NCBI GenBank assembly: GCA_958295525.1
Contig: OY282355.1
Span: 1,153,504 to 1,217,503, forward strand
Direction of reading: 5' to 3'
DNA length: 64,000 bases
Origin: an uncultured Dehalococcoidia bacterium
GTDB lineage: Bacteria > Chloroflexota > Dehalococcoidia > Lucifugimonadales > Australimonadaceae
Numbering within the stretch: position 1 is the stretch's first letter; each line of letters begins with the position of its first letter. Positions 16,843 to 43,930 of this stretch are shown piece by piece. The position numbers and the translations under genes are program-made. Under the pieces are notes generated by a model, which saw nothing but the letters and a program-made list of their open reading frames with translations, was not told the origin of the DNA and did no database searches.

Positions 16843-17105
16843 TCTTCCGTCGTTCCCGCGCAGGCGGGAACCTTGTCCCCTATCCCGTCATTCCCGCGCA
16901 GGCGGGAATCTCGCCCCTTGTCCCGTCATTCCCGCGCAGGCCGGAACCTCGCCCCCCTGCCCCGTCATTCCCGCGCAGGCGGGAATCTCGCCCCTTGTCC
17001 CGTCATTCCCGCGCAGGCGGGAATCTCGCCCCTTGTCCCGTCATTCCCGCGCAGGCGGGAATCTCGCCCCTTGTCCCGTCATTCCCGCGTAGGCGGGAAT
17101 CTCGC
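16843..17105. repeat. Tandem array of seven dRS3-like units, 38-bp period
   Basis: Seven copies of GTCATTCCCGCGCAGGCGGG-type palindrome begin near 16850, 16887, 16925, 16964, 17002, 17040 and 17078, separated by near-identical AATCTCGCCCCTTGTCCC linkers. It occupies the gene-free stretch 16802-17152. The linkers are identical to each other, so this is not a CRISPR array. Confidence 0.92.
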
Positions 17106-22557: not shown

Positions 22558-23850
22558 ATGCTCAGCGCCGAGGACAACGCTCTGCTCACAGCGACCTCGC
22601 GCGGAACGGCGATGGGCGACCTGCTCCGCCGCTTCTGGGCGCCGTTCCTCCTCTCCTCCGAACTCCCGAAGCCGGACTGCCCGCCCATCCGCGTCCGGCT
22701 GATGGGCGAAGACCTCGTCGCGTTCCGCGACACGTCGGGGCGCGTCGGCTTGCTCGCCGAGCGCTGCCCGCACCGCCGCGCCAGCCTCTTCTTTGGGCGG
22801 AACGAGGAGCACGGCCTGCGCTGCGTCTACCACGGCTGGAAATTCGACGCCGACGGCCAGTGCGTGGATATGCCGTCGGAGCCGGAGACGAGCGCCTACA
22901 AAGCGAAAGTGCGCCAGCCTGCCTACTCCGCAGTCGAGGCCGGGGGCGTCGTCTGGGCGCACCTTGGACCGCGCGGGGAGACGCCCGCGATGCCGGACTT
23001 CCCGTGGTTGCGCCTCCCGCCGTCCCGCGTCCACGTAACGAAACGGCTGGAGCGCGTGAACTGGGTTCAGGCGCTCGAGGGCGGCGTGGATTCGGCGCAC
23101 TCCAACTTCTTGCACGCAACGGTGGATTCGTTCCGCCGGACGCCGGAGTGGATGGAGCGCGCCCGCGCGTCCGATGACCTCCGCGCCCGCTATCACGCGC
23201 TCGACCGCTCCCCCGTCTTCCTGCCGGAAGAGACGCGCTACGGACTCCGCATCGGGGCGCGGCGCAGCGTCGGCGAGGGCCAATGCTACTGGCGGTTCAC
23301 GCACTGGATGATGCCGTTCTACAACCTCTTCAAAGAGGGCGCGCCCAAGCCCGGCGTCAACAGCCAGGGCATTGCGTGGACGCCGATAGACGACCGCAAT
23401 TGCTGGACGCTCGTCGCAACTTGGAACGAGCATCGCCCTCTGAGCGGCGAAGACATCGAGACGGCGGAGGATTTCGCCGGGCCGGCCATCCCGGGCACGT
23501 TCCTCCCTATGCGGAACGCGGAGAACGATTACCTCGTAGACCGCGACCTGCAAGCGTCCGGGACGTTCACGGGCATCGCCGGAACGCAGGCGCAGGATAT
23601 GGCCGTGCAAGAGAGCATGGGGCCGGTGACCGCCCGCAGCGAGGAGCATCTGGGCACGAGCGACGCCGCGATCATAGCGATGCGCCGCAGCCTGCTGCGC
23701 CACGCCCGCGCGCTTGCGGACGGCGCCGCCGCTCCGCTGCCCGCCCGCGACGGCTCCGTCTACCGCGTCCGCTTCGCTGAAACGCTCGCCGCATCCGGGG
23801 ACGCGCTCGACGCGGCGGCGCGGGAGCGCCTCTGCTCGGCGGGCGCCTGA
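22558..23850 (+). CDS. Rieske ring-hydroxylating oxygenase alpha subunit (1)
   Basis: 430-aa oxygenase of the phthalate 4,5-dioxygenase-like group. The Rieske [2Fe-2S] ligands are Cys70, His72, Cys89 and His92 (CPHRRAS...CVYHGW). The mononuclear iron site is Asp178, His181 and His186 (GVDSAHSNFLHA), with Asp178 positioned to bridge electron transfer between subunits. It hydroxylates or demethylates an unknown substrate using electrons from an unlinked reductase. Two homologues with identical ligand spacing are at 36576 and 38281 on the other strand, but this copy is more distant in sequence. Confidence 0.92.
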   Translation: MLSAEDNALLTATSRGTAMGDLLRRFWAPFLLSSELPKPDCPPIRVRLMGEDLVAFRDTSGRVGLLAERCPHRRASLFFGRNEEHGLRCVYHGWKFDADGQCVDMPSEPETSAYKAKVRQPAYSAVEAGGVVWAHLGPRGETPAMPDFPWLRLPPSRVHVTKRLERVNWVQALEGGVDSAHSNFLHATVDSFRRTPEWMERARASDDLRARYHALDRSPVFLPEETRYGLRIGARRSVGEGQCYWRFTHWMMPFYNLFKEGAPKPGVNSQGIAWTPIDDRNCWTLVATWNEHRPLSGEDIETAEDFAGPAIPGTFLPMRNAENDYLVDRDLQASGTFTGIAGTQAQDMAVQESMGPVTARSEEHLGTSDAAIIAMRRSLLRHARALADGAAAPLPARDGSVYRVRFAETLAASGDALDAAARERLCSAGA

Positions 23851-23898: not shown

Positions 23899-25263
23899 CT
23901 ACGCGACCGCCCTCAGCGCATCCTCCCGGACGGCTAGCCCCAGCCCCGGCGCGGCGGCGACCGCTCCCGGCGCGAGCAGGCCGCCGTCGCCGAACGTTAG
24001 GCTCTCCGACGTCAAATCCTCGCGCAGCAGATGCGTGCCGAACGCGCCCTCCGACGCCGCGAGCGCGGAGCCTGCGGCCTGCATCACGCTCAGCCCCGCC
24101 CGCGTGAGGATGCTCGTCTCGCCGACTTGCGCGCCCACGATCACGCCTATTCCCAGTTCCGCGGCCTTCTCCACAACCTCCATCGACCGCCGGACGCCGC
24201 CCATTTTGGAAACGCGAACGTTCGCAATCCACTTGCCGGAGACATTCGCGCCATCGTCCCCGCGCAACCTACCGTCATCCCCGCGTACTTTCCCGTCATT
24301 CCCGCGTAGGCGGGAATCTCGCCCCCTTTGCGCCATAGTTCCCGCGTACTTTCCCGCCCTGCCCGCGTAGGCGGGAATCTCGCCTGCCCCCCTCTCCCGC
24401 TCAGCGGGAGAAGGACGCGGCGCCCCCGGCGCGCCGAGGCTGTCCAGTTGCGCGGCGCGCAGCAAACTCTCGTCCAGAATGATCCGAACGCCCAACTCCT
24501 CGCTCACGCGCTCGAATCCGGCGAGATCGCCCGCCCTCAGCGGCTCCTCGACTGCGAACGGAGCGCCGCCAATCGCGGCGAGATGACGGATGCAATCGTC
24601 CGCGTCCGTCCACAGGTTGTTGGCGTCGAGGCGCAGACGCAGGCCGCGCTCCCTGCCACCTGCGGACGCGCCTCCGCCCCCGAACAAGCCGCCGCTTCCG
24701 AACAAGCCTCCGCCCGTGAACAGGCGCATCTTGCGGCGGTCGCGCCCCAAGTCGCCGGAGACTTTGACCTTGAAGTCCGTGAACCCGCGCCTGCGGTAGC
24801 GGCGAAACTGCCACCAGTAAGCAGGGTAGGGCGCATCGCCCAGCACGGCGGAGTAGGCGAACGCCCCCGCGAGGCGCGGCAGGCCGAGAACGTCCTCGAT
24901 GGGAACGCCCGCCGTCTTGCCCAGCAGATCGAGCACGGCGAGTTCCACCGCGCAGAACGCGGCAGGATGCTCGTCTATCTCGCTCCGATGCGCCTCGGCC
25001 CAGGCGCGCAGCCCCGGCTCGTCGCGCGCGGCGTCCGCGACGGCGGGAGCATGCTTCCGGACGAACGCTGCGGCGCTTTCCGCCGTCTCGCCGGTGACGT
25101 AGGAGCGCGGGCAGCCCTCGCCGTAGCCCGTGAGCCCGTCCGCCGACCTCGCGGCGACGATGAGATTCTCCGTGCTCGACCGGCTCGCCGACGCATGGCG
25201 GAAGACCGCGCGGAACGGCGCGGGATAGGAGTAGACCTCCAGCGACGCGATAGGCGCGGGCAT
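23899..25263 (-). CDS. Enolase-superfamily (MLE subgroup) enzyme with in-frame repeat insertion
   Basis: 454-aa protein, about 90 aa longer than usual members. Catalytic residues of the MLE/dipeptide epimerase group are all present: KVKVSG (Lys165, Lys167), LDANN (Asp213), VEEP (Glu239-240), LDES (Asp264) and VSKMGG (Lys353). Residues about 280-342 are translated palindromic repeats ([22 protein letters not shown]), inserted between the third metal ligand and the second catalytic Lys without breaking the frame. A Gly-rich stretch at 183-203 is another expansion. Likely reactions are racemisation or epimerisation of an N-acyl amino acid or dipeptide, or an OSBS-like step. It is the last gene of an operon with GH3 and fatty acid hydroxylase genes. 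Confidence 0.85.
   Translation of the reverse strand: MPAPIASLEVYSYPAPFRAVFRHASASRSSTENLIVAARSADGLTGYGEGCPRSYVTGETAESAAAFVRKHAPAVADAARDEPGLRAWAEAHRSEIDEHPAAFCAVELAVLDLLGKTAGVPIEDVLGLPRLAGAFAYSAVLGDAPYPAYWWQFRRYRRRGFTDFKVKVSGDLGRDRRKMRLFTGGGLFGSGGLFGGGGASAGGRERGLRLRLDANNLWTDADDCIRHLAAIGGAPFAVEEPLRAGDLAGFERVSEELGVRIILDESLLRAAQLDSLGAPGAPRPSPAERERGAGEIPAYAGRAGKYAGTMAQRGRDSRLRGNDGKVRGDDGRLRGDDGANVSGKWIANVRVSKMGGVRRSMEVVEKAAELGIGVIVGAQVGETSILTRAGLSVMQAAGSALAASEGAFGTHLLREDLTSESLTFGDGGLLAPGAVAAAPGLGLAVREDALRAVA
24238..24426. repeat. dRS3-like repeats inserted inside the enolase-family gene
   Basis: About 190 bp containing two good palindromes (near 24297 and 24363) and several decayed half-units (CCCGCGTACTTTCCCG) interrupt the coding region. 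All six relevant reading positions stay free of stops in the gene's frame. Flanking protein sequence resumes the family pattern on both sides. Confidence 0.85.
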
Positions 25264-25267
25264 ACCC

Positions 25268-26935
25268 CTACTCCTGCCCCTCCGCGTCGTCGTCGCCTTC
25301 CGCGGCGAGGGACTCGGCGGCGGCGGCGAAATCGAACGGGCACTCGCGGACGTACTGCAGATGCAAATGCTTGAACTGCGCGTCTCGCTGGCCGGACGCG
25401 ACCATCCGCTCGCGGTAGCGCGCGCCCTCGCCCGGCGGAAGGCGGCGAACGCGGAGCGGAGCGAGCCGTCCGCTGCGCCGCTTGGCGTCGTACTCGACGT
25501 TCGCCTCGCTGAGGAGGCGGTCGACTTCGGCGGCGTCCCCGCGCAAAGCGCCGTCGGTTTCCGCGTAGAGCGTGTAGCCCGCCGTGCGCTCGTCCGCGAG
25601 CATAATGAAGAACGCGGGCGGCGGGCGCCCGTTCGCGGAGAAGGCGGCGGTTACCGCGGCGAGCGTCTGCGATTCCGTCACCTTCTCGCCGGTGACGTTC
25701 GTCACGCCCTTGCCCTTCTGCGCGAACTCCAGCGCGGGCGTGTTCCCGATTCGTCCGTTCACGCGAACCACGTCGTTGATGTCGTAGCGGTAGAGGCCGT
25801 CGCCGGTCGTGGCGAACACGTAGTACTCGCGCCCCTCCTCCAGTTCCGGCAGGCCGAGGAATTCGCCCCCGCCCGCCTCCCATGCCGCCCGCTCCGCGAA
25901 CTCGAAGAACACGCGCGTGAGCGCGGGCAGGCAAGCGTTCCGCCGCGCGTCCACGTTGAGCGTTCCGCGGAACTCGCTCGACGAGTAGCCCCACTCGATG
26001 ACTTGCGCGCCGCCGGGCAGCAAGGGCGTCAGGTTGGCGAGCGCGATGGCGCAACTGCCGCCCGTCCAAGTGACGACCGCCCGCAGGCGCGGCCATATAT
26101 CCGCGAAGGCGAGGCGCCCCGACGCGGCGAGGCGCCGCTCCAACTCACGGGCGCGTTCCGGGCGCGGCGGAGGCGGGGGACAGCGGGCCGCGTCCGGCAA
26201 ACGCCCCGACGCGACGGCGGCGAGCGCGGCCTCCGGGGCGTCGTTCACAACCTCCAGCAGCCGCAGAAACGTGGACGGATTCGCCGTGGCGATGCCCGTC
26301 ACCTCCGGCTCGCCCAGTCCGTAGACCGCCATTGCGAAGTAGCGCGCGGCGTAGTCCTCGATCTCCGCGACTTCCGGGGGCAGCACGTAACGCGAGCGCA
26401 CGAACCGCGACTGGCTCCGGTAGAGCAGGCCCGACGCCGACCCGAACGGCGCGCCTCCGGCCATCCTGCCCTCGACCGCCGCGCCGCTCACGGCGAGAAC
26501 CTTGCCCTCCAGCGCGCCCGAATCCCGCGTCCAAACGTAGGCGGAGAGCCGCTGGTCGCGCTTCATCTGCGCGAGGCCGGACGGCGTTACGGGGATGTGC
26601 TTCGGCGCGCCCAGCGTCCCGCTCGTGCGGTGATAGTAGACGGGCCGCTCTTGCGTCAGGCGCCGCTCGCCGGTCAGTTCCTGCCGCTCGATGTCGGCGC
26701 GGAGGTCTTCGTAGGTTTGGACGGGGGCGGCGTTGCGGTAATCGCTCACGCTGCGGATGCTCGAGAAGTTATGCCGCCTGCCGAAATCGGCGTCGGCGTT
26801 CGCGGCGAGGATGCGGCGCAGCAGCGCCTCCTGCGTCGTCCCCGGAGCGTCGGCGGCCCGCATCAAGCGCCGGTGGCGCGGCGCCTGCGCCGCCGTCAGC
26901 GCGGCCTTGAGCGCTTTGTAGGCGAGGCCGCTCAC
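25268..26935 (-). CDS. GH3-family acyl-adenylating amidosynthetase-like protein
   Basis: 555-aa protein of the GH3 auxin-responsive family. Plant GH3 enzymes adenylate carboxylates and join them to amino acids. The ATP-binding motif YYHRTSGTLGAPKHIPVT is clear near residue 100-118, followed by VVTWTGGSC, WGYSSSEFRGTL and the YVFATTGDGLYRYDINDVV loop with the ribose-binding Asp; the C-terminal domain has the KHLHLQYVRECPF end. The GTG start at 26935 overlaps the TGA of the hydroxylase gene (GTGA), and the enolase-family gene starts 4 bp after this stop. Bacterial GH3 proteins are little characterised; an acyl-amino acid ligase role is inferred from family. Confidence 0.88.
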   Translation of the reverse strand: MSGLAYKALKAALTAAQAPRHRRLMRAADAPGTTQEALLRRILAANADADFGRRHNFSSIRSVSDYRNAAPVQTYEDLRADIERQELTGERRLTQERPVYYHRTSGTLGAPKHIPVTPSGLAQMKRDQRLSAYVWTRDSGALEGKVLAVSGAAVEGRMAGGAPFGSASGLLYRSQSRFVRSRYVLPPEVAEIEDYAARYFAMAVYGLGEPEVTGIATANPSTFLRLLEVVNDAPEAALAAVASGRLPDAARCPPPPPRPERARELERRLAASGRLAFADIWPRLRAVVTWTGGSCAIALANLTPLLPGGAQVIEWGYSSSEFRGTLNVDARRNACLPALTRVFFEFAERAAWEAGGGEFLGLPELEEGREYYVFATTGDGLYRYDINDVVRVNGRIGNTPALEFAQKGKGVTNVTGEKVTESQTLAAVTAAFSANGRPPPAFFIMLADERTAGYTLYAETDGALRGDAAEVDRLLSEANVEYDAKRRSGRLAPLRVRRLPPGEGARYRERMVASGQRDAQFKHLHLQYVRECPFDFAAAAESLAAEGDDDAEGQE

Positions 26936-27825
26936 CGCTCCAGTCCTTTCACGAACGGCGTCCGCATCTGCGCGAGAAACCCCGGCGGATACGCGCGGTT
27001 CCGCAGCCCCAGCGCGCCCACCTCACGGCCCTGCGGCAGGAAGCGCGTGCCGAACAGAACGTCCCAAACGATCAGATTGTTGCCGAAGTTGCGGTCGGAC
27101 TCCTCGGGAAGCATCGAGTGATGCCAGCGATGAAGTTCGGGCCCGCTGACGAGGTAATTCAGCGGCCCGAGCCGCACCTCGCAGTTGGAGTGCTGAAAGA
27201 ACCCGTTGACGGCGTAGAAGACGAAGTAGACGGCCAAAACCTCCGGCGCCACGCCCAGCAGCGCGAACGGAAGCGTGTCCGCCGCGTACTGCATCGCCTT
27301 CTCTATAGGATGGAACCTCCCGACGTTGAGCCAGTAGAGCCGGAGCGGAGAGTGGTGGACGGCGTGCAGGCGCCACATCCAAGAGAAGCGGTGAAAGGCG
27401 CGATGCAGCCAGTAGCGGGGGAAGTCCGCCGCCGCGAGCAGCAGCGCGGCCTGCGCCGCGACAGGCCAATCGCCCGGCCAAAGGCCGCTCGCCTGCCAGC
27501 CCCGCCGCTCCAACAGTCCCGCGAGCGCGGCGACGAGCGTGAAAGACAGCAGCAGCGGAAGCGCGGCCTGCACTGCGGCGAGATAGGCGGCGTCGGCGCG
27601 GACGTCGCCCACCGAGGGGCGCCACTCGCGCCGGTGGGGCAGCCGCGCCTCGTGCAGCGTGACCAGCGCCGCCCCCATGACGACGGCGGCGTAGGAGGCG
27701 GGGCGAACGTCCCAGCCCAGGCTCGTCAACGCCGCGTAGACCGCGAACCCCGCGCCGACGACCGCCGGATACGACGCGGCGGCGCCGATTCGGGAGACCG
27801 CCGACACGGATCGCTGATCGCTCAT
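26932..27825 (-). CDS. Fatty acid hydroxylase / sterol desaturase family protein
   Basis: 297-aa integral membrane di-iron oxygenase. The His clusters are WLHRAFH, HAVHHS and HRWHHS, with further His in FHPIEKAM and FFQHSN, matching the eight-His pattern of the superfamily. Four or more TM helices surround them. The ATG at 27825 is preceded by CCGGAGG; an upstream frame to 27939 would add 38 residues that are only translated palindromic repeats and was rejected. First gene of the hydroxylase-GH3-enolase operon, overlapping GH3 by four bases. Substrate could be a fatty acyl chain or isoprenoid lipid. Confidence 0.9.
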   Translation of the reverse strand: MSDQRSVSAVSRIGAAASYPAVVGAGFAVYAALTSLGWDVRPASYAAVVMGAALVTLHEARLPHRREWRPSVGDVRADAAYLAAVQAALPLLLSFTLVAALAGLLERRGWQASGLWPGDWPVAAQAALLLAAADFPRYWLHRAFHRFSWMWRLHAVHHSPLRLYWLNVGRFHPIEKAMQYAADTLPFALLGVAPEVLAVYFVFYAVNGFFQHSNCEVRLGPLNYLVSGPELHRWHHSMLPEESDRNFGNNLIVWDVLFGTRFLPQGREVGALGLRNRAYPPGFLAQMRTPFVKGLER

Positions 27826-27851
27826 CGCGGCCTCCGGCGTATGACTCCCCC

Positions 27852-28125
27852 CTGTCCCGTCATTCCCGCGCAATCCACCGTCATTCCCGCGAAGGCGGGA
27901 ACCCAGTCGGCGCGATGCATGCCCCTCTGCCCCCGTCATTCCCGCGAAGGCGGGAATCTCGCCCCCACGCCCCTGTCGTTCCCGCGAAGGCGGGAATCTC
28001 GTCCCCTTGCCCCGTCATTCCCGCCCACCCTATCATCATTCTGCATATGTTAGGCGTTCGGCAAGGCGCTGTGCACCGCGTCCGAGGGCGGGATTCCCGC
28101 CTTCGCGGGAATGACGACCATGGGG
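27852..28125. repeat. Cluster of dRS3-like repeats, 27826-28168 gene-free
   Basis: The 343-bp gap holds about six palindromes: four full copies in GTCATTCCCGCG orientation (near 27882, 27936, 27976 and a half copy at 27858), a truncated one at 28014, and one in opposite orientation at 28092. No gene is supported. Confidence 0.88.
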
Positions 28126-28168
28126 AGCATGCGGGACCTGCCGGAGCGCATCCATGCATAGGCAGGCG

Positions 28169-30209: not shown

Positions 30210-30629
30210 CTAGGCGTTCGCCAAGCGTTCGCGCGCTTCCTGCGCCGTGAGGATGGGCACGGAGAACGCCGGAGCAAGAACGAGCAAGTCTTGGTCGCCG
30301 GTGACGATGGCGTCCGCCTCGCCGGACAAGGCCAACTGAAGGAACGGAACGTCGGACGGGTCCCGGCACTCGGGAATGTCGGCGTCCTCGCGAACGTTCA
30401 CGATTTCACATTGCGTGATGTAGTCCTCGAGCAATCTGTCGCGCTCGTCCGGCGTCAAGCGGAATTTCGGATAGGCGAGCACGCGGTTCAGTTCGCGTAT
30501 TGTGGCGAGGCTAATGAGAGGAACGATCCGCTTTGCTCGCCAAGCCTCCCGCGCCCACGCCAGCGCTCCGCCGGAGCGCAATGCGGAGACAACGACATTC
30601 GTGTCTAGAACGAACCGGAGAGGAGGCAT
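30210..30629 (-). CDS. PIN-family toxin (COG1569 type)
   Basis: 139-aa PIN-domain protein: RFVLDTNVVVSAL with Asp9, RELNRVLAYPKF with the second acid, RDPSDVPFLQLALSGEADAIVTGDQDLL with the C-terminal acids, and an F-SVPILTAQEARERL tail typical of this branch. The start codon ATG (30627-30629) shares one base with the TAA of the AbrB-like antitoxin gene. Expected activity is RNA cleavage controlled by the antitoxin. A decayed copy of the same module lies at 31111-31532. Confidence 0.88.
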   Translation of the reverse strand: MPPLRFVLDTNVVVSALRSGGALAWAREAWRAKRIVPLISLATIRELNRVLAYPKFRLTPDERDRLLEDYITQCEIVNVREDADIPECRDPSDVPFLQLALSGEADAIVTGDQDLLVLAPAFSVPILTAQEARERLANA

Positions 30630-30976
30630 TAGCCGCGGCGCGCCCATTCCACGGCGTCGGCGATGTCCTGCTCGGTGATGCCCAGCCGCTCTATTTTCTC
30701 CCACACGGCGTCCGCTTCGGCAGGGTCAGGCCGGCGCTCCCGCGCCAACGCCACGATGTCAACGAGGTCTTGGCGCGTGAGCCCCGGCTTGGCCAACCTC
30801 TCCGAGATGGACTCCGCTCGGTCGGTGGAAGGAGCCTCGGCGGGGCCGACGCTCACGGGAGCCAAGACGATGCGCCCGTCGTCCTCCGCGACGTCAAAGT
30901 ACTCCGTGCCCTCGAAGGCGGAGATGACGGACTTGGGGATAGTGATCTGGTTCTTCGACGTGAGTTTGGCGAGCAT
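30629..30976 (-). CDS. AbrB/MazE-type antitoxin
   Basis: 115-aa protein. The N-terminal swapped-hairpin DNA-binding domain is recognisable (LTSKNQITIPKSVISAF...FDVAEDDGRIVLAPV); the C-terminal part (LTRQDLVDIVALARERRPD, ITEQDIADAVEWARRG) is the toxin-binding region. GGAAGAG precedes the ATG at 30976. The stop codon overlaps the toxin start by one base. It should repress its own promoter with the toxin, as is usual for type II modules. Confidence 0.88.
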   Translation of the reverse strand: MLAKLTSKNQITIPKSVISAFEGTEYFDVAEDDGRIVLAPVSVGPAEAPSTDRAESISERLAKPGLTRQDLVDIVALARERRPDPAEADAVWEKIERLGITEQDIADAVEWARRG

Positions 30977-31110
30977 CGCGGCTCTTCCCCTTGCAAGGAT
31001 TCCTTGCCTATGCTATCGCCTTGCGCGGGGTTGTCAATTTCCGGCTGGGGCGGGGCACCGGAATGGAGGGCGCTTGCCGCTGTTGGGTGACGGCAAACGC
31101 GCTGGGCAGG

Positions 31111-31272
31111 CTAGGCGTTCACCAAGCGTTCGCGCGCTTCCTGCGCCGTGAGGATGGGCACGGAGAACGCCGGAGCAAGGACGAGCAGGTCTTGGTCGCC
31201 GGTGACGATGGCGTCCGCCTCGCCGGACAAGGCCAACTGAAGGAAGGGGACGTCGGATGGGAGCGGAGGCAT
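31111..31272 (-). pseudogene. PIN toxin remnant with internal deletion
   Basis: Encodes only 53 residues: the first four residues of the intact toxin (MPPL) joined directly to its PSDVPFL...RERLVNA end. Compared with the copy at 30210, residues 5-90 are missing, removing the first catalytic Asp and the second acid. The rest is nearly identical, so the deletion is recent. It is very unlikely to be an active nuclease. Confidence 0.85.
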
Positions 31273-31532
31273 CAGCCTCGCCGCGCCCATTCCACGGCGT
31301 CGGCGACGTCTTGTTCGGTGATGCCAAGCCGCTCTATTTTCTCCCACACGGCGTCCGCTTCGGCAGGGTCAGGCCGGCGCTCCCGCGCCAACGCCACGAT
31401 GTCAAGGAGGTCTTGGCGCGTGAGCCCCGGCTTGGCCAATTTCTCCGAAATGGACTCGGCGAGGCTGACGGAAGCCGTCTCGGCGGGGCCGACGTTGACC
31501 GGGGCAACGCCTGACGGAGAGTCGTTATCCAC
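31272..31532 (-). pseudogene. Antitoxin remnant lacking DNA-binding domain
   Basis: Retains the C-terminal toxin-binding half of the AbrB-type antitoxin (VGPAETASVSLAESISEKLAKPG to VEWARRG) but has lost the AbrB domain. A GTG at 31532 could start an 86-residue product. Its TGA overlaps the remnant toxin start by four bases (ATGA), as in a working module. It could still bind the intact toxin at 30210, but no evidence shows it is expressed. Confidence 0.75.
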
Positions 31533-42960: not shown

Positions 42961-43200
42961 CAAGGGGGGCGCTTGCGCGCCGACTGGATTCCCGCCTGCG
43001 CGAGCGCAGGGCGGCAGTCGCCTACTCTAACGCATCCGCGCTTGCGCGGATGCGCTCCATTACCTCCCGGGGCCTCGTCATTCCCGCGAAAGCGGGAACC
43101 TACTGGGAACGCCTCCGCGTAGGGGGGAACGACGAGCAAAGGAGGGAGCGACGAGGCGCTGCGCGCCGACTGGATTCCCGCCTGCGCGGGAATGACGGGG
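42961..43200 (+). repeat. Flanking segmental repeat, left copy
   Basis: Includes GAGCGCAGGGCGGCAG, a hairpin GCATCCGCG-CTTG-CGCGGATGC, one repeat with AAAGC centre, and GAACCTACTGGGAACGCC. It matches 43689-43930 with few changes at an offset of about 728 bp. Confidence 0.85.
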
Positions 43201-43688
43201 CAAGGGGGGGCGCTTGCGCGCCGACTGGATTCCCGCCTACGCGGGAATGACGGGGCGGGGGGGGGGTGCTTGCGCGCCGACTGGATTCCCGCCTACGCGG
43301 GAATGACGGGGGAGGGGGGCGCTTGCGCGCCGACTGGATTCCCGCCTGCGCGGGAATGACGGGGCAAGGGGGGGCGCTTGCGCGCCGACTGGATTCCCGC
43401 CTACGCGGGAATGACGGGGGAGGGGGGCGCTTGCGCGCCGACTGGATTCCCGCCTGCGCGGGAATGACGGGGCAAGGGGGGGCGCTTGCGCGCCGACTGG
43501 ATTCCCGCCTACGCGGGAATGACGGGGGAGGGGGGCGCTTGCGCGCCGACTGGATTCCCGCCTGCGCGGGAATGACGGGGCAAGGGGGGGCGCTTGCGCG
43601 CCGACTGGATTCCCGCCTACGCGGGAATGACGGGGGAGGGGGGCGCTTGCGCGCCGACTGGATTCCCGCCTGCGCGGGAATGACGGGG

Positions 43689-43930
43689 CAAGGGGGGGCG
43701 CTTGCGCGCCGACTGGATTCCCGCCTACGCGAGCGCAGGGCGGCAGGCCGCCTACTCTAAGCGCATCCGTGCTTGCACGGATGCGCTCCATTACCTCCGG
43801 GGCCACGTCATTCCCGCGAAAGCGGGAACCTACTGGGAACGCCTCCGCGTAGGGGGAACGACGAGCAAAGGAGGGAGCGACGAGGCGCTTGCGCGCCGAC
43901 TGGATTCCCGCCTACGCGGGAATGACGAGG
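43689..43930 (+). repeat. Flanking segmental repeat, right copy
   Basis: Second copy of the 42961-43200 segment. Its internal hairpin is GCATCCGTG-CTTG-CACGGATGC, with paired changes relative to the left copy. Confidence 0.85.

Follow-up and report, generated by a model that had tools for sequence, protein, structure and literature searches.

The window analyzed here is a 64,000-nucleotide stretch of DNA from a close relative of sponge-associated SAR202 Chloroflexota. It raises the question of what a bacterium makes with three tightly coupled genes: one for FAH, a protein of the membrane di-iron fatty acid hydroxylase family, one for a GH3 amidosynthetase and one for ENO, an enzyme of the enolase superfamily. 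Bacterial GH3 proteins are widespread, and only one of their pathways, that of OlsH (2025), is characterized in the literature searched. No pathway with the FAH-GH3-ENO trio or the ENO-GH3 pair was found in that literature, in agreement with a sequence-only reading of this DNA, which knew of no described pathway with the trio. The same reading had proposed a hydroxy-acyl amino acid lipid or signal as the product. This interpretation is partly supported, in that the trio is conserved and the roles of GH3 and ENO fit their nearest relatives. It had left out a fourth component that is lost here (F3), the pairing of ENO with GH3 outside the clade of the trio, a neighboring Rieske gene and a repeat insertion in ENO. 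We see the chances as evenly balanced that the operon builds and then modifies an N-acyl amino acid through the chemistry of GH3, ENO and FAH; its product is probably a membrane aminolipid or a secreted lipid.

Organization of the operon

The genes are transcribed from the minus strand in the order FAH, GH3 and ENO:

27825-26932, minus: FAH, membrane di-iron fatty acid hydroxylase family protein (PF04116), OlsE-like, 297 aa
26935-25268, minus: GH3 amidosynthetase (PF03321/PF23571/PF23572), 555 aa, GTG start
25263-23899, minus: ENO, MR/MLE-subgroup enolase-superfamily enzyme, predicted N-acyl amino acid racemase/epimerase, 454 aa

Coordinates and Pfam matches bear out the trio and the spacing of -4 and +4 bp that had been read from the sequence: FAH and GH3 overlap by 4 bp (GTGA), with the GTG start of GH3 within the FAH stop, and a 4-bp gap separates GH3 from ENO. 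The FAH start was set at 27825 because the relatives begin at the equivalent position, and the extension to a longer open reading frame start at 27939 merely reads through palindromic repeats. The whole genome, a single contig of 2.5 Mb, contains one gene each for GH3 and FA_hydroxylase and no more than four for MR/MLE enzymes, which makes chance adjacency unlikely.

Conservation and spread of the gene trio

A GH3 alignment was used to scan 84,980 GTDB genomes, yielding the 80 closest GH3 loci, and those with FAH directly upstream and ENO directly downstream of GH3 on one strand were designated type A. A search of plasmids returned distant GH3 genes only. The gene order in relatives, which had been suggested earlier as a check on the operon, proved strongly conserved: type A is complete in 25 of the 80 loci, from Chloroflexota, Gamma-, Alpha- and Betaproteobacteria and Verrucomicrobiota. 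Two further type A loci are incomplete, L052 ending at a contig end and L088 (Calditrichota) being partial. Intergenic gaps in type A are mostly -4 to +13 bp, and same-genus genomes have the order FAH-GH3-ENO-Rieske on a single strand wherever the contig extends far enough. The type A GH3s form one clade (SH support 99) in a tree built without OlsH orthologues, and the type A ENOs also form one clade (support 100). Pairwise distances among FAH, GH3 and ENO are correlated, with r values of 0.94, 0.92 and 0.88 (Mantel p≤0.0002). The trio proteins of the window share 59-62% identity with those of a gammaproteobacterial trio, and in the GH3 tree the clade that holds the window's GH3 is embedded among trios of Proteobacteria; these comparisons point to horizontal transfer as the means by which the trio spread as a unit.

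Pairing of GH3 with ENO extends beyond this clade. ENO stands beside GH3 without FAH in 32 further loci by a proximity rule (30 to 33 by other rules), designated type B, where ENO usually lies upstream of GH3, mostly the opposite of type A. A heme-oxygenase-like di-iron domain (HDO, PF14518) is present in 10 of the 32 and is fused to ENO in several, for example L045. The neighbors in these 32 loci, comprising alpha/beta hydrolases (20), patatin-like proteins (7), PlsC domains (4) and KS domains (3), all fit acyl-transfer or acyl-chain chemistry. ENOs of types A and B have a common signature (H23, PRxYVTGE, N-x-R-x-S-K, VGET and E405-G), whose motifs are present in 55-60 of 60 partners, alike in both types; the single paralogue control, L128, has none of them. 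Among 25 distant GH3 loci of the same class, none had ENO, FAH or HDO within about 1.5 kb. Chance adjacency of FAH, GH3 and ENO was rejected on this result together with the recurrence across phyla, the clade support and the distance correlations. The retention of the GH3-enolase pair in many phyla provides a testable lead to the function of many bacterial GH3s and of an as yet unassigned enolase-superfamily subfamily.

Other genes were observed around the GH3 loci. In Pseudoalteromonas/Exilibacterium (L072, 70-11801; L075, 2-11913), a type I PKS and thioesterases lie directly beside GH3, an alpha/beta hydrolase and ENO, and the region is possibly a polyketide-amino acid cluster. The di-iron-type loci L111 (2575-11128), L103 and L127 carry an MFS-PlsC-AMP-binding fusion (LplT/Aas-like), HDO-ENO, GH3, F3 and a biotin-synthase-like radical SAM protein. 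A Ser/Thr protein kinase adjoins many GH3 loci, with or without ENO (L074, L078, L081, L088, L091, L095, L109 and L114-L116).

The fourth component, F3, is present in 16 of the 27 type A loci. It is a protein of about 150 aa with apparently four membrane helices, as read from the sequence by eye, and an FHxxLA motif in which FH is invariant and LA nearly invariant. F3 is the first gene in same-genus relatives, where it overlaps FAH by 4 bp. It occupies the same open reading frame as FAH in six alphaproteobacterial, verrucomicrobial and other trios, lies downstream of ENO in four Gammaproteobacteria, and stands beside GH3 in five di-iron type B loci without FAH. F3 genes were located as follows:

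L048, 816-1286: F3 gene
L050, 6644-7114: F3 gene
L111, 9611-10066: F3 gene

None of 19 F3 members matched a Pfam family at cut-off, giving scattered weak matches only, and no PDB structure matched. F3 is lost from the window's genome, where a search that returned E<1e-80 in four same-genus genomes found no copy.

Predicted functions of the three enzymes

GH3 matched its three Pfam domains, in the order listed above, with E-values of 2e-48, 2e-16 and 1e-11. Its nucleotide motifs, TSGTLGAPK (104-112), GYSSSE (316-321) and GLYRYDINDVV (380-390), were assigned by reading the sequence against motifs quoted in PMC12493201. The AF2 model reached a pLDDT of 90, and its best PDB matches were all plant GH3 enzymes. 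The carboxylate-amino acid ligase activity proposed by the sequence-only reading would fit, by analogy, both the characterized OlsH (PMC12493201) and the plant GH3 structures, and GH3 is likely an acyl-acid/amino-acid ligase that forms amides. OlsH itself links ornithine to a free fatty acid at the cost of ATP, giving N-acyl ornithine (PMC12493201). Against the NCBIfam OlsH model NF052613, GH3 scored 87.5 bits versus a curated cut-off of 620. No alpha/beta hydrolase, the family of the OlsI partner, was found within 4 kb in type A loci, and no OlsI scored above cut-off in the window's genome. Given this score and the missing OlsI partner, GH3 was rejected as OlsH (lyso-ornithine lipid synthetase).

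ENO contains the MR_MLE N and C domains (PF02746/PF13378) and belongs by its residues to the MLE subgroup of the enolase superfamily: the KxK of strand 2 (K165/K167) and the D/E/D metal ligands (D213/E239/D264) are invariant, and the Lys of strand 6 (K353) is nearly invariant. Its best solved relative is the N-succinyl Arg/Lys racemase 2p88 (profile E 2.4e-64; Foldseek rank 1), and N-acylamino acid racemases are likewise close. In VIA-align, the match to 2p88 (Z 41.1, rmsd 2.5 over 359) is tied with muconate-type and dipeptide enzymes, and the NCBIfam listing places mucon_cyclo first. Because an invariant Arg53 replaces the Asp of the Arg/Lys racemase, ornithine/lysine specificity is not simply assumed. 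In dipeptide epimerases, a C-terminal D-x-D motif binds the alpha-ammonium group. In ENO, this motif is replaced by an invariant E405-G (EGxxG), at an alignment gap that makes the column equivalence uncertain, and ENO was rejected as a dipeptide epimerase. An N-acyl amino acid offers the free carboxylate and the alpha proton that the enzyme class of ENO needs. The sequence and the AF2 model, in which the core is confident, appear compatible with an N-acylamino acid racemase. By analogy with the nearest solved relative, N-succinyl Arg/Lys racemase, the earlier suggestion of an acyl amino acid epimerase would fit, and we slightly favor the view that ENO racemizes an N-acyl amino acid.

FAH belongs to the FA_hydroxylase membrane di-iron family, with a PF04116 score of 106 bits versus a cut-off of 31 (E 2.6e-30) and the conserved histidine boxes HX3H, HX2HH and HX2HH; ten histidines are invariant (H141, H145, H154, H157, H158, H172, H212, H232, H235 and H236). 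A solved relative was not found by sequence. The NCBIfam OlsE model NF052566 matched over the full length at 174.8 bits (E 2.4e-51), the tested type A FAHs scored 174-210 bits, and a generic FAH paralogue scored 77. With a cut-off of 475 for this model, FAH was rejected as OlsE (ornithine lipid hydroxylase). OlsH and OlsE are the sole NCBIfam models matched by GH3 and FAH, respectively, so their status as nearest models is partly forced. The window's genome encodes no OlsB-type acyltransferase and no OlsI above cut-off, and a complete acyloxyacyl lipid is therefore not predicted. We consider it fairly probable that FAH hydroxylates the same lipid on which GH3 and ENO act.

State of the operon in the window

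The window's copy of the operon and its surroundings contain the following features:

27826-28168, minus: repeat-rich gap of 343 bp before FAH, with palindromic repeats; the F3 gene is here in same-genus relatives
24654-24716, minus: ENO insertion 2, in-frame, about 21 aa, Gly-rich (aa 183-203), absent from relatives, pLDDT about 42
24235-24423, minus: ENO insertion 1, in-frame, about 63 residues (aa 281-343), palindromic repeat sequence, absent from relatives, pLDDT about 30
22558-23850, plus: Rieske oxygenase (PF00355/LigXa_C), probably accessory

A copy of the palindromic repeat lies at 24293-24318, inside ENO insertion 1. This 26-bp repeat, GATTCCCGCCTTCGCGGGAATGACGG, occurs in 45 copies in the window (≤3 mismatches) versus none expected and is dense at 16847-17101 and 43173-43928. 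Elsewhere in the window, an AbrB-like/PIN-domain toxin-antitoxin pair at 30230-31500 is, by eye, apparently duplicated in tandem with one copy truncated. The Rieske gene shows 80-81% identity and lies on the same strand as the trio in L044, L048, L049 and L050, the near relatives whose contigs reach it, and the window's gene is inverted relative to the same-genus genomes. No Rieske gene was seen beside the trios of other lineages; Rieske, CaiB and ECH were rejected as core parts, being absent beside the trio there.

Since F3 is lost and ENO carries two insertions, the window's copy may work poorly. These changes and the inverted Rieske gene would also fit an operon that is decaying in this strain and whose product is no longer made, a reading compatible with any function in the relatives. 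However, the reading frames and catalytic residues are intact, and third codon positions carry about twice the substitutions of first and second positions in FAH, GH3 and ENO. All three proteins show the same level of identity to relatives, and the core of the ENO model is confident. Decay of the operon is unlikely; the trio enzymes look maintained, and their genomic context looks disturbed.

Proposed pathway and alternative explanations

The gene order, the co-evolution of the proteins, their intact active sites and their nearest families are observed; from these we infer which reactions take place, in what order, on which substrates and to what product, as follows. GH3 would adenylate a free long-chain acid with ATP and couple it to an amino acid through the amino group. 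With Mg2+ and its Lys/Lys pair, ENO would then abstract and restore the alpha proton of this N-acyl amino acid, which sits beside the free carboxylate, so that the product would be the N-acyl D-amino acid or a mixture of L and D forms. FAH, as a membrane di-iron enzyme, would hydroxylate the lipid at its acyl chain or head group, and F3 would be part of the unit in most relatives, perhaps as a membrane or redox partner. Because GH3 is near OlsH and plant GH3, ENO near the N-succinyl racemase and FAH near OlsE, the sequence of N-acylation, alpha inversion and hydroxylation appears to be the most economical scheme. If ENO does invert N-acyl amino acids, this would be a bacterial route to D-amino acid lipids. 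A trio common to Chloroflexota and Proteobacteria that live with sponges would suggest that it serves symbiosis or adapts the membrane. The most far-reaching version, held only tentatively, is a horizontally shared operon in sponge-associated bacteria of unrelated phyla whose products, hydroxylated N-acyl D-amino acid lipids, would form a new class; ENO would invert the amino acid once GH3 has attached the fatty acid, and F3, representing a new family of small membrane proteins, would be the fourth component.

The reverse order of events deserves consideration, as ENO could isomerize, cyclize or dehydrate an acid that GH3 then conjugates, yielding a small conjugated metabolite instead of a membrane lipid. 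The structural tie of ENO with muconate cycloisomerases and the first place of mucon_cyclo in NCBIfam favor this order, the invariant R53 could bind a second anionic group, and the type I PKS and thioesterases beside ENO-GH3 in Pseudoalteromonas/Exilibacterium could supply a special acid. However, the N-succinyl amino acid racemase ranks first by both sequence profile and Foldseek, and lipids are indicated by FAH beside GH3 and by the hydrolases, patatins and PlsC domains of type B. Action of ENO before GH3 therefore seems rather unlikely. A true ornithine-lipid pathway would make GH3 a diverged OlsH and FAH a diverged form of OlsE that modifies the head group of ornithine, with ENO as a source of D-ornithine lipid. 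Such a pathway would account for the nearest named models of GH3 and FAH and for an ENO relative that handles Arg/Lys. Nevertheless, we find it distinctly improbable, with scores of 87/620 and 175/475, no OlsI partner and R53 in place of the Asp of the Arg/Lys enzyme. Moreover, the authors of the OlsH study anticipate that the amino acid may be a different one for homologues from outside the planctomycetes (PMC12493201).

The genus-level neighborhood lends itself to a catabolic interpretation, in which GH3 would activate either an acid or an N-acyl compound, and ENO, FAH and Rieske would take part in the breakdown of dissolved organic matter of aromatic or chiral nature, as would suit the oxidative catabolism of SAR202. 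Within the genus, the trio has the Rieske gene as its neighbor, genes for CaiB and ECH are found upstream, and SAR202 expansions of enolases and ring-hydroxylating dioxygenases (RHDs) have been interpreted as catabolic; the sponge symbiont MPMJ01, of SAR202 group VII, has 62 RHDs (PMC6946804). With so many RHDs, however, a Rieske neighbor is weak evidence, and Rieske, CaiB and ECH do not accompany the trio in other lineages. The enolase expansions belong to SAR202 groups I and II, whereas the window's genome has at most four MR/MLE genes, and known GH3 enzymes form amides, not CoA esters. A catabolic module is improbable on these grounds, and we retain the N-acyl amino acid scheme as the preferred reading.

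Comparison with known systems

The proposed chemistry is plausible, and the trio may be regarded as a new variation on GH3-dependent amino acid lipid chemistry, not as a proven new class. In the OlsH/OlsI ornithine lipid pathway of Singulisphaera acidiphila (PMC12493201), a GH3-family enzyme likewise lies in an operon with lipid-tailoring genes, and the GH3 of the trio fits a reaction that uses ATP to attach a free fatty acid to the nitrogen of an amino acid. The trio, however, has neither OlsG nor OlsI and instead includes an enolase-superfamily enzyme and FAH, whereas PMC12493201 mentions neither an enolase nor a hydroxylase with OlsH. OlsE, of the FA_hydroxylase family, resembles FAH in full-length homology, in the same histidine boxes and in membership of a membrane di-iron family, but FAH remains at 175 bits against the cut-off of 475, sits in a GH3 operon and occurs in a genome without OlsB-type enzymes.

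The plant GH3 acyl acid amido synthetases (JAR1, GH3.5, GH3.12 and GH3.15) share the fold, the three nucleotide-binding motifs and a full-length alignment with the bacterial GH3; identity is about 20%, the gene here belongs to a bacterial operon with FAH and ENO, and hormone substrates are not implied. Among N-succinyl amino acid racemases, the Bacillus cereus N-succinyl Arg/Lys racemase (2p88) is the closest solved structure to ENO and has the same MLE-subgroup catalytic residues. ENO differs from it in an identity of only about 20%, in R53 for Asp, in its own signature (PRxYVTGE / NxRxSK / VGET / EGxxG) and in having GH3 as its genetic partner, while the substrate class of these racemases fits the predicted GH3 product.
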